Source: Mollicutes bacterium (lineage in GTDB: Bacteria > Bacillota_I > Bacilli_A > Izemoplasmatales > Izemoplasmataceae). Taken from it: DNA of 44,098 nt. The translations under genes and the position numbers were made by a program. Below the pieces are notes generated by a model. It searched no databases. It was not told the origin of the DNA and saw only the letters and a list, made by a program, of their open reading frames with translations. Location of the stretch: NCBI GenBank assembly GCA_003568315.1, contig PWYL01000037.1:1-44098 (forward strand). The letters run 5' to 3'. Of the stretch, positions 2,778 through 44,098 are shown piece by piece. The stretch's first letter is position 1; the number at the start of each line of letters is the position of its first letter.

Positions 2778-2786
2778 ATTATACCA
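2778..2786 (-). promoter_or_regulatory. Extended -10 promoter for the Rieske gene
   Basis: The minus strand reads TGGTATAAT about 35 bases before the chosen start. A -35 match is poor, as is common with extended -10 promoters. Confidence 0.6.
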
Positions 2787-2816
2787 TTCTTTGCGCGTCT
2801 GGGGAATCTTCCTTTC

Positions 2817-2844
2817 TTGAAAAAAGCTTGCCAGCTGGTATAAT
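2817..2844 (+). promoter_or_regulatory. Promoter of the nucleoside kinase gene
   Basis: TTGAAA (2817-2822), a 16-base spacer and TATAAT (2839-2844) lie 36 bases before the ATG. It faces away from the Rieske promoter. Confidence 0.75.
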
Positions 2845-2880
2845 GGTACTACCGAAGACAACAACAGAAAGGAGACCGCC

Positions 2881-4518
2881 ATGTTCACATTGGACATAGA
2901 AGGCAAGAGAAAGACATTCCAAAACAAGGTGAGACTGCTCGATCTGCTGGATGACCGGAAGAAACGCCACTATATCGCCCTCGTCAACAACCGCCTCAGG
3001 GAACTCCACTATGAGGTGGATTACGACGCCGAGGTGGAATTCCTCGATTCGCACCATCCCGAGGCCGTGCACGCCTATGAGGCGAGTCTCCGCTTCTTGG
3101 TGGCGATGGCCTTCAAGAACATCTATCCGGACTACGACTTCAAGTTCAACTACAGCATCTCCCGTTCCGTGTTCTGCCATATCCTCAATCTCGAGGAAGG
3201 CGCGAACATCAGCGAGATCATCAAAAAGATCGAAAGCGAGATGGAACGTCTCGTCGCGGCGGACCTCTCCATCGTCCGCCACGAGATGGAAAAGGAAGAA
3301 GCGAAAGAATTCTACCAAAAACACGGCTACAATGACAAACTCGAGGTCATCCGCTACCGCCCCGAGGATATCGTCCACTTCTACGAGTGCGACGGATATC
3401 TGAACTACATGTACAGCCTCATGGTCCCTTCGACCGGCTATCTCAAGGAATTCTCCATGCGGGCCTATCCGCCGGGGTTCCTCGTCCAATACCCCCGCGC
3501 CGAGGCGGGCGCGAAGATTCCCACCTTCGAGGACGCACCAATCTATGGGAGGACTTTGCGGCAGGCCAACCGCTGGGTGGAACGGATCGACGCCCACACC
3601 ATCGCCCGCATCAACAAGCACGCCGGAAGCCGCCGGGTGGCCGATTTCGTGCAGATGAACGAATCCCGCCACAACCAGATGCTCGCCGAGATCGGCCAAA
3701 CCATCGAGGAAGCCGCGGGTGAGATAAGGCTCATCGCCATCGCCGGCCCCTCTTCTTCCGGCAAGACCACCTTCAGCCATCGTCTCCGGGTCGAACTCAT
3801 GACCCGCGGTCTGAAACCGGTGATGATTTCCTTGGACGACTACTATCTCGACCGCGACCAGATCGAGCCCGACGAGAACGGACAGATCGACCTCGAGCAC
3901 ATCAACACGCTCGATATCGACCTCTTCAACCGGAACATGCTCGATCTCATCCAGGGACGGGAAGTGGACATCCCCCATTTCGATTTCATGATCAAAAGAC
4001 GCACCGGCTACAAGAAACTGAAGATCCGCGCGGACAACCCGATCATCATCGAGGGGATCCACGCTCTGAACGAGACCCTCACCGAACTCATTCCCCATCA
4101 CCAGAAATACAAGATCTTCATCAGCCCGCAACTGCAGATAAACATCGACCACCACAACCCGATAAGCATCACGAACCTCCGGCTCTTGCGGAGGATCGTC
4201 CGCGACCGGAAATTCCGCAACGCACCGGCAAGCAAGACCATCCGCATGTGGCCGTCCGTCCGCAAGGGCGAGTTCCGCTGGATCTATCCCCACCAGGAAG
4301 GTTCCGACTACATCTTCAACAGCTCCTTGGCCTATGAACTCTGTGTGATGAAAAAACACGCCCTGGACACCCTCATGGAGATTCCCCGCGATAGCGAGCA
4401 CTTCATCACCGCCAACCGTCTCATCAAGTTCTTGAAATATTTCAAGGATATCGACGACGAACTGGTCCCCAACAACTCTCTCTTGAAAGAGTTCCTCGGG
4501 GGAAGCTGTTTTGATTAA
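2881..4518 (+). CDS. Uridine-kinase-family nucleoside kinase with TGS-like N-terminus
   Basis: This 545-residue two-part protein is of a kind common in Bacillota. Residues 1-60 look like a TGS/ubiquitin-like domain, and the region to about 250 resembles the second N-terminal domain of threonyl-tRNA synthetase. From about 280 on there is a uridine-kinase/phosphoribulokinase fold with the Walker A loop GPSSSGKTT (about 287-295) and the substrate-loop motif SLDDYYLDRDQ. It should transfer phosphate from NTP to a nucleoside, with uridine or cytidine most likely, in pyrimidine salvage; the role of the tRNA-synthetase-like part is unknown. The start ATG has AAAGGAG 6 bases upstream. It is a single-gene unit with its own promoter and a strong terminator at 4554-4589. 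Confidence 0.85.
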   Translation: MFTLDIEGKRKTFQNKVRLLDLLDDRKKRHYIALVNNRLRELHYEVDYDAEVEFLDSHHPEAVHAYEASLRFLVAMAFKNIYPDYDFKFNYSISRSVFCHILNLEEGANISEIIKKIESEMERLVAADLSIVRHEMEKEEAKEFYQKHGYNDKLEVIRYRPEDIVHFYECDGYLNYMYSLMVPSTGYLKEFSMRAYPPGFLVQYPRAEAGAKIPTFEDAPIYGRTLRQANRWVERIDAHTIARINKHAGSRRVADFVQMNESRHNQMLAEIGQTIEEAAGEIRLIAIAGPSSSGKTTFSHRLRVELMTRGLKPVMISLDDYYLDRDQIEPDENGQIDLEHINTLDIDLFNRNMLDLIQGREVDIPHFDFMIKRRTGYKKLKIRADNPIIIEGIHALNETLTELIPHHQKYKIFISPQLQINIDHHNPISITNLRLLRRIVRDRKFRNAPASKTIRMWPSVRKGEFRWIYPHQEGSDYIFNSSLAYELCVMKKHALDTLMEIPRDSEHFITANRLIKFLKYFKDIDDELVPNNSLLKEFLGGSCFD

Positions 4519-4553
4519 TTGGCACCTTCGTTGATGCATGTCCATATCGTGAA

Positions 4554-4589
4554 AAGCAGACATTCCCGGGAATGTCTGCTTGTTTTTTT
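4554..4589 (+). terminator. Strong intrinsic terminator after the nucleoside kinase
   Basis: A perfect palindromic stem centred on CCCGGG (AAGCAGACATTCCC on the left arm) is followed by TTGTTTTTTT. It starts 35 bases after the stop codon. Confidence 0.9.
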
Positions 4590-4608
4590 CCATACCCACG
4601 AGAGGGCT

Positions 4609-41770: not shown

Positions 41771-44098
41771 TTACCAGCCGCCGTAGACCTCCTCGACGAC
41801 GTGGTCGACGCCTTCTTCGGTCAAGGCCGGAATGAGGGCATCGTCACGGTCTTCATTCTCGTAATAGGTCACGGGGATGGGCACAGCTTTGGAAGCGAGA
41901 TAAGCAGCTTCGAGATCCGGTGTCAGGGTGCCGCGGACGATCATCGATCCGAGCACAATCTCGCGGTCTTCTTCGTCGAGAGCCTGCAAATCGCTGATGT
42001 CGAAGGAAACGGTGGCGAAGTTCGCTCCGCCGAGCACATCGACGGCATTGATGAAGAGGATGATCTCATCACTCGTCGCGACAACGCCTTCGTCGTCGAC
42101 GTGAGCATAGAGTTCGGTCTCGGCGTATTCCGAGATCAGGATGTTGGCGTTCGACCGGAGCATGTCGTCGATCGTGATGTGGGCCGTGGCGCTCGCGAGG
42201 ATGGTGCCGAGTTGTTCGTCGGTCAAAGCCTGGATGATGTCGGCCGTGATGTCCGCGTCGAAGGTGAGGACGCCAAGTTCATCGAAAGCGGTGAGGAGCC
42301 GGCGGAGTTCGTCCTTTTCGATCTGTTCTTCGACCGCACCCTCGACAAGTATCCCTTCACGGTATTCATCAGTGACGATCATTCTCTCCGTGAGCGCCGG
42401 AGCCTGTCTGGTCGAGTGAGAGGCATCGAGGATGTTTTTCGAGATGGTCGCGTGGATGGAGACCGAGTCCAGGAGGTTGTCATAGTCCTCATCGGCACCA
42501 TCGAAGATGGTCGCGGGATTGAAGTTGAGGTTCTCGAGATCGTCGAGGCCGAGGTCCTCGAGCGCGATGAGGATGAGTTTGGTTTCTCCGCTTTCCACAT
42601 AGGTGAGATGATAGACATCTTCATCATCGTCGACATCGATCCGGATGGGATCGCCACTCACGTAGTGTTCGTCGGGAATGACGAGTTCGCCGCCCGTGTC
42701 GTTCAACATCTTGTCGGAGAGGGTGGCATGCAGCACGTTCGAGGCGAGCAGGAGGCCAATGTTCTCGTCTTCGGCATAAATGACCGAGAGATCGATGTCG
42801 CCGGTGTAGGTCTGCACATCGGTCACACCGAGCATGTCGAGGGCATAAATCATGTCTTTGACTTCTTCTTGTGTCAAATACTCGAACTCGGTGTTGGCAG
42901 CGAAGAACAATGAATCATCATCCATGCCCGTGGCGAGCCGCACTCTCGTGACGGTGTCTTCTTCGTAGTAGGGGACTTGGATGATGTTGTCATCACCGAG
43001 GTCGATGACCTGTTGGGCGATGGTCGCATGGATGATATGGCTTTCGAGGATGTCGTCGACTTGTCCCGCGGCGACGATTTCATCCAAAGCGATAGCACCG
43101 TCGAAATCGCGGACGTCGGTGATATTGAGGATGTTCATGACCACGATCAGTTCGTCTACCTCGCTGAAGAGCACATACTCGAAATCGGTGTTTTCGGCGG
43201 GATCACCCGTGATTTTTCTCACGGCCACATCGGCATGATTCGCGGGAGGCGTCTCGTAGGCCTCATAATGGGGGACGACGATGGTTCCCGCATCGTCGAG
43301 GTCGAGTAGCTGCGTCGAGATGGTCGCGTGCAGCACGGACGAATCGAGAACCGTGGCACGGTTTTCTTGATATGTGGTCTCGTCGGGATCCTCGAGCACG
43401 GCGAGGTTGACTTCGCCGACGAAATCGTCTATTTCATCCAGTCCGAGCATGAGCAAGGCATCGATCAGACGGTCGAGCTCGTCATAGGTCACATATTCGA
43501 AATCGGTGCCCTCACCTTCATCGCCCGTGTCCACCCGGATGAGGGTCGCATTGTCGCGGGCGAAATGGGGCACGGAGAGGATGTCATCGTCTTCGAGGTC
43601 GAAGAGTTGTGTGGACATCGTCGCGTGGATGATGGCGGAATCGAGGACTTTGCCCCGGTCGGTCTCGTCTTCGAGATGGCTGAAGGTCACGCTGCCGCCG
43701 AAGGCTTCAATGTCGGTCATATCGAGGATATGCAAGGCGACAAGGATCCGGCCGAGTTCTTCCGCTGTCACGTATTCGAAGCGGGTGTCTTCGTTCTCGA
43801 AGGCTGCATCGGTCTCTTCGCCGGTTTCTTTGCGCACGTTTCCTCCCGCCTCGCGCAAATGCGGGATGCTGATAGTGTCCGGATCAAGGTCGAATAGCTG
43901 TCCGGACATGGTCGCACTGATGACGGCGGAATCCGTGAGGATGGCGCGGTTTTCGGCATAGGTCGTTTCATCTTCGTCATAGATTTCCGCAAGGCTCACG
44001 GTACCGGTGAAGGCCTCGACATCGGTGACACCGAGGAGGATGAGCGCTTGCAGGATGTTGTCGATCTCGTCCTTCGCCACATAAGTGAAGGTCGTGTC
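41771..44098 (-). CDS. Large acidic repeat protein, C-terminal part
   Basis: The reading frame is open to the window edge, so the N-terminus lies outside; 775 residues are visible. They consist of about eight degenerate repeats of 80-105 residues. Each opens with an F-E-Y-V/L-T-x-E-E type strand and a helix ending in a-L-x-x-L-G-V/L-T-D-V. A stretch T-G-x-V/I-x-L-x-x-I follows, then a core S-x-x-x-H-A-T-I/M-S and a closing I-x-V-P-H/Y-Y. The sequence is very rich in Asp and Glu and has no cysteine that I can see. There is no LPxTG anchor or C-terminal membrane helix; it ends VVEEVYGGW. The last three repeats are more diverged. I recognise no named domain; a surface or secreted structural role is a guess from size and composition. 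Confidence 0.8.
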   Translation of the reverse strand, partial: DTTFTYVAKDEIDNILQALILLGVTDVEAFTGTVSLAEIYDEDETTYAENRAILTDSAVISATMSGQLFDLDPDTISIPHLREAGGNVRKETGEETDAAFENEDTRFEYVTAEELGRILVALHILDMTDIEAFGGSVTFSHLEDETDRGKVLDSAIIHATMSTQLFDLEDDDILSVPHFARDNATLIRVDTGDEGEGTDFEYVTYDELDRLIDALLMLGLDEIDDFVGEVNLAVLEDPDETTYQENRATVLDSSVLHATISTQLLDLDDAGTIVVPHYEAYETPPANHADVAVRKITGDPAENTDFEYVLFSEVDELIVVMNILNITDVRDFDGAIALDEIVAAGQVDDILESHIIHATIAQQVIDLGDDNIIQVPYYEEDTVTRVRLATGMDDDSLFFAANTEFEYLTQEEVKDMIYALDMLGVTDVQTYTGDIDLSVIYAEDENIGLLLASNVLHATLSDKMLNDTGGELVIPDEHYVSGDPIRIDVDDDEDVYHLTYVESGETKLILIALEDLGLDDLENLNFNPATIFDGADEDYDNLLDSVSIHATISKNILDASHSTRQAPALTERMIVTDEYREGILVEGAVEEQIEKDELRRLLTAFDELGVLTFDADITADIIQALTDEQLGTILASATAHITIDDMLRSNANILISEYAETELYAHVDDEGVVATSDEIILFINAVDVLGGANFATVSFDISDLQALDEEDREIVLGSMIVRGTLTPDLEAAYLASKAVPIPVTYYENEDRDDALIPALTEEGVDHVVEEVYGGW

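Follow-up and report, generated by a model that had tools for sequence, protein, structure and literature searches.

The window analysed here is the whole 44,098-nucleotide stretch of contig PWYL01000037.1 (assembly GCA_003568315.1, a Mollicutes bacterium). At its end, a minus-strand open frame of 775 aa (41771-44098) reaches past the window edge. An earlier note, made from the letters alone, had described this frame as a highly acidic protein of unknown family, extending beyond the window and containing about eight diverged repeats. To avoid circularity, the repeat HMM was built only from the nine repeats 4-12, none of which lies in the window; they are encoded by another contig of this genome, C43. 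This held-out HMM recovered eight units in the window part, seven of them with an i-E of 5.1e-5 or better (Table 1), and the whole-sequence E was 2.5e-87, whereas the best-scoring of 200 shuffled sequences reached 0.16. Over the whole array, successive cores are separated by 87-111 aa. The core, S-x-x-x-H/Q-A-T-I/V/M-S/T, is clear in window units 1-6 and decayed in the final two. The repeats of the window fragment are confirmed as real; their count, spacing and core had been given correctly, and the frame does run off the edge, with the remainder on contig C43.

Table 1. Features of the giant repeat gene in the window and on contig C43.
Feature	Position	Strand	Remark
C-terminal 775 residues of giant repeat protein	41771..44098	-	stop TAA
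Repeat unit 1 of window part	43850..44095	-	held-out HMM i-E 5.5e-12
Repeat unit 2, core SAIIHATMS	43550..43795	-	held-out HMM i-E 5.4e-19
Repeat unit 3, core SSVLHATIS	43259..43552	-	held-out HMM i-E 2.5e-20
Repeat unit 4, core SHIIHATIA	42953..43231	-	held-out HMM i-E 2.8e-18
Repeat unit 5, core SNVLHATLS	42701..42898	-	held-out HMM i-E 2.8e-12
Repeat unit 6, core SVSIHATIS	42413..42616	-	held-out HMM i-E 5.7e-7
Repeat unit 7, degenerate core SATAHITID	42158..42343	-	held-out HMM i-E 5.1e-5
Repeat unit 8, degenerate core SMIVRGTLT	41912..42073	-	weak, i-E 0.11; array position in support
121-bp end identical to first 121 bp of C43	43978..44098		closest other gene match 93/121
5' part of giant gene	C43, ATG at L009:5833	-	joins 41771..44098 of window

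The end of the window and the start of contig C43 overlap by exactly 121 bp. This stretch occurs once on each side of the join, and its nearest relative within the gene agrees at 93/121 positions. In a search of the own genome, the first 40 residues of the window part gave a 100% match at the start of C43, with further repeats beyond. Joining the window contig (C76) to C43 yields a frame of 2679 aa from the ATG, in which four N-terminal membrane helices are followed by about 21 repeats. The relative in genome G003 is encoded by a single uninterrupted frame, and the join is supported because the order of the repeats parallels that in the G003 frame. Since an assembly break within a repeat array can conceal copies, the 21 significant repeats of the joined protein are a minimum. 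The same architecture is found in single frames of relatives (for example, 2310, 2364 and 2037 aa). Between the anchor and the repeats, into which it merges, lies a conserved region (A4) of some 400 residues.

The membrane helices lie within residues 1 to about 195, with hydropathy peaks at 21, 47, 115/138 and 178, the third being possibly one long helix or two. Across 31 aligned rows, G29 and G33 are invariant and G168 and G172 nearly invariant, spaced four apart; we take such small-residue (glycine) motifs to be a mark of the CvpA family. The protein's own N-terminus alone matched no Pfam family, Colicin_V (PF02674) included (none at E ≤ 10). Colicin_V was the most frequent Pfam family for the N-terminal part of the relatives, being found at E ≤ 0.1 in 9 of 27 rows (best 7.4e-6) and at E ≤ 0.01 in 15 of the 31 rows of a broader set (best 1.1e-9), and paralogue G034 C4 passed the Colicin_V cut-off with its in-frame neighbours (30.3 bits). 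By hhalign, the anchor aligned to one set of CvpA relatives passing the Pfam cut-off with a probability of 96 (E 1.7e-9), and to two other CvpA sets with probabilities of 73 and 53. The CvpA link of the own N-terminus runs through its relatives. The signal peptide for which the earlier note proposed to look was not seen. In its place the protein begins with a membrane domain of four helices that resembles CvpA; the note could not show this domain, since it is encoded on another contig.

The charges of the loops were compared in 27 relatives. In the two loops predicted to be inside (one behind helix 1, the other ahead of helix 4), K+R exceeded D+E in 27/27 rows; in the helix 2-3 loop and in the 49 residues past helix 4 this was so in 0/27 rows, and the N-terminus was basic in 1/27. 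Given these uniform positive-inside charges, the repeats are expected to be extracytoplasmic. A tandem array on the predicted extracytoplasmic side would suit the long rod proposed earlier, whose extended shape is a supposition.

The protein resembles CvpA (Colicin V production protein) in its four N-terminal membrane helices, its glycines four apart and its basic cytoplasmic loops. It differs in that the CvpA-like frames of sortase families are 205-281 aa long, whereas the giant adds about 2450 residues of extracytoplasmic repeats; at 2679 aa it is CvpA-anchored rather than a short, stand-alone CvpA. LPxTG sortase-anchored proteins are long tandem-repeat surface proteins of Gram-positive bacteria. 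Unlike these, the giant contains no LPxTG (0 occurrences) and shows no signal peptide, its own genome (G000) has no sortase (PF04203) match, and its anchor is N-terminal and membrane-embedded. We consider it probable that the gene encodes a giant surface protein, a stalk or a coat, that is anchored in the membrane and depends on neither sortase nor wall. The CvpA-like four-helix domain, with both ends outside, would fix the giant in the cytoplasmic membrane, and the following ~2450 residues, with about 21 or more strand-plus-helix repeats, would form an extracytoplasmic stalk or coat. Long proteins could thereby be displayed without a wall anchor, in a lineage that apparently has neither peptidoglycan cross-linking nor sortase.

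The array differs in length between relatives. Repeats 1-3, encoded on C43, and 16-20, encoded in the window, have repeats 1-3 and 13-17 of the G003 protein as their best matches, whereas repeats 4-15 and 21 of the window's protein best match other repeats of that protein itself. Copy number changes in the middle of the array, and its ends are conserved. Copies gained and lost in the central part of the gene would alter its length, with the membrane-proximal and distal ends staying fixed. Adjacent tandem paralogues of differing length were found at six of the fetched f3 loci and two of the f7 loci; the loci with two CvpA-anchored giants in tandem, one long and one short, are L033, L034, L035, L036, L042, L043, L083 and L084. 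Mid-array copy turnover between conserved ends in a tandem array, together with such paralogues, would also suit an adhesin or biofilm matrix protein, whose repeats offer a binding tip or sticky shaft toward particles or cells and whose length tunes its reach. However, neither the window part nor the remainder of the protein showed a known adhesin domain, and no distinct tip domain was seen at the C-terminus; we regard such a role as possible but rather unlikely.

The high acidity noted earlier holds for the window part (D+E 22.8%, K+R 4.4%, pI 4.05) and for the joined protein (pI 4.05), which has no cysteine. Its extracellular part has 24.6% D+E, 4.6% K+R and a net charge of about -478. By comparison, 24 hand-picked long ORFs of the window have medians of 14% D+E, 13% K+R and pI 6.0, a set that includes the frame at 2779-4599. 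The latter, an acidic minus-strand frame of 606 aa, probably just shadows the uridine-kinase-like ORF at 2881-4518 on the plus strand. Since the other ORFs of the window are not unusually acidic, the acidity is a trait of the giant protein and not of the whole proteome. A stalk or coat of this composition could act as a polyanionic layer. As an explanation in itself, a polyanionic cation or pH buffer strikes us as possible but rather unlikely; the acidic repeats would then retain Na+, Ca2+ or protons close to the membrane of a wall-less cell living in saline or alkaline water. The net charge and an acidity far beyond that of the remaining window ORFs speak for it, as do the strong depletion of K+R in f1 and f3 relatives and the origin of the nearest named record in soda-lake sediment. 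However, the composition is milder in f2 and in several distant relatives (K+R 0.07-0.10), so that extreme charge is not constant, and the extracellular part contains no canonical calcium motif: DxDxDG, D-x-[DN]-x-[DN]-G and GGxGxD each occur 0 times. The calcium-binding modules suggested earlier are thereby not supported, and the giant does not qualify as an EF-hand, dockerin or RTX calcium-repeat protein; loose binding of cations by the acidic surface is possible.

The genes around the giant differ between lineages, and no class-wide conserved operon partner was found among the loci compared. In the window's genus, the upstream genes match Indigoidine_A and MatE, and also PfkB in G003, and the downstream genes encode a LigT-like and a DUF1295 protein. 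In f2, the giant gene is followed directly by one for an Obg-like GTPase at 3/3 loci (L044, L045 and L046; one scanned), and the gene on its upstream side matches an M50 peptidase below threshold. A neighbour cluster present at ten loci consists of ABC ATPases, judging by the two members scanned. In f3, a divergent trypsin_2-like lipoprotein candidate adjoins the giant gene at 9/9 fetched loci (one Pfam-scanned); this neighbour, for example L033 7131-8024, has a lipoprotein-type N-terminus. A 5'-nucleotidase-like gene lies downstream at five of the nine f3 loci (one scanned).

The membrane helices of MarP (Rv3671c) presumably belong to the CvpA family, and the giant likewise has four N-terminal membrane helices and an extracytoplasmic part. 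MarP carries a trypsin-like protease on the same chain, whereas the giant has no Pfam protease match. In PMC4992679, MarP is described as an extracytoplasmic domain preceded by four membrane helices at the N-terminus, and a homologue of 397 aa is described. A role in envelope quality control, in which the CvpA-type domain and extracytoplasmic part would partner the trypsin-like protease that MarP holds on one chain, draws on the divergently adjoining f3 gene. We find it improbable, as the genus of the window has Indigoidine_A-like and MatE genes upstream and no adjacent trypsin_2 neighbour, and the repeats have no protease match.

The designation as a protein of unknown family stands for the repeats, which have no Pfam match above threshold and no clear PDB relative; the window part has no NCBIfam match. 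With PDB sequence profiles, A3 and A4 gave nothing at E ≤ 1 and A5 gave two chance-like matches (0.64 and 1.3). Pfam, NCBIfam and PHROGs yielded nothing but weak, sub-threshold matches to the repeats, HDOD and staphylokinase among them, and an HDOD identity was rejected at 16.1 bits against a Pfam cut-off of 22.9. No relative of the repeat protein was found in the viral contigs searched. AlphaFold models of a repeat pair and a single repeat, with the window and one named relative as rows, had pLDDT values of 51.5 and 60.8. The strand-helix pattern described earlier is present in both models, in which a unit seems to consist of short strands and some three helices, at low confidence only. Foldseek with the single-repeat model returned 8 matches at E ≤ 10 and none at E ≤ 0.001. 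A triple-repeat alignment (A2) was discarded since its rows shared repeats and were out of register. A largely disordered acidic linker in place of folded repeats would fit the pLDDT values (51 and 61), the position of the extracellular part on the charge-hydropathy boundary (H 0.486 vs 0.485) and that of G003 just on its disordered side, but we find this improbable: 43% of the residues are hydrophobic, four of the five relatives examined fall on the folded side, 10-residue blocks over predicted helices have a mean pLDDT of 64-79 in places, and the repeat profile detects many units in distant families.

No 16S sequence turned up in the assembly, and its placement as Izemoplasmatales-like is tentative. 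With the C43-encoded part as query, matches were found in 25/41 genomes of the order (f1, 13/25; f2, 3/7; f3, 9/9). The extracellular profile matched 88/296 genomes of the class, strongly in f1, f3 and f10 and weakly in f2, f7, f9, f12, f16, f18 and f22, and the anchor profile matched 146/296. A frame length was listed for 116 of these 146 genomes, and in 113 of the 116 the frame was at least 700 aa; giants are thus present in at least 113/296 class genomes, at lengths of up to 6056 aa. Among the 30 unlisted anchor matches, 20 were checked, including all 18 with sortase. At 16 distant loci, chosen by hand, the first 230 residues of the giant frame contained at least three hydropathy peaks in 16/16 cases, and six or more repeats were detected at E < 0.01 in 7/16. 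In a draw from the phylum, 33/295 genomes matched, all shown as of the same class or closer, though most non-matching genomes were unlisted and the draw therefore does not define the reach outside the class. These data point to a wide family of CvpA-anchored giant surface repeat proteins, with surface location predicted, that current library models lack; a search of the paper library found no description of such a family.

The distribution of sortase and transpeptidase was compared with that of the giants. Transpeptidase was matched in 0/41 genomes of the order, compared with 10/14 controls; class-wide, it was present in 133/296 genomes, and sortase in 78/296. Between the at least 113 listed giant-bearing genomes and the 78 with sortase, the overlap was 0 among 296. 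The same held within the 133 transpeptidase-bearing genomes (34 giants, 78 sortase, overlap 0) and for the narrower extracellular profile (88 genomes, overlap 0). The 18 sortase genomes with an anchor match had frames of only 205-281 aa. Fisher tests gave 2.8e-20 for the 296 genomes and 1.6e-17 for the 133, treating genomes as independent, which they are not. By family, the giant was found in 11, sortase in 8 and both in none; 105/296 genomes had neither sortase nor a listed giant. The exclusion may stem from few phylogenetic events, and sequence distance could conceal diverged giants in sortase families. Wall loss as a rule was rejected, since 34/113 giant-bearing genomes carry transpeptidase, so that the giant is not tied to loss of the wall.

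In the survey PMC10868615, losses of sortase and peptidoglycan are reported for related orders, and sortase loss is read as reduced surface protein expression. In contrast to that reading, sortase-less lineages may use another anchor to display proteins of very large size. We tentatively suggest, at somewhat less than even odds, that in this class of walled and wall-less members CvpA is a general membrane base for giant surface polymers, which takes over upon loss of sortase and wall anchoring, so that sortase-less lineages carry CvpA-anchored giants (700 to 6056 aa) and sortase lineages only short CvpA. If this is true, CvpA, a widespread domain, gains a concrete structural role.

The nearest named record is L030 (PUJZ01000089.1), with 87% identity in the best segment. 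Its MAG is titled Methanomassiliicoccaceae archaeon, and the sample name denotes high-salinity soda-lake sediment; an archaeal S8e protein is encoded in this MAG, so the 4-kb contig probably represents contamination from a bacterium. Other f1 genomes (L055, L059, L063 and L064) carry CvpA in another fusion, some 660 aa long, with a tail unlike the repeats; three of the four are without a repeat-protein match, and L055 exceeds the Colicin_V cut-off.
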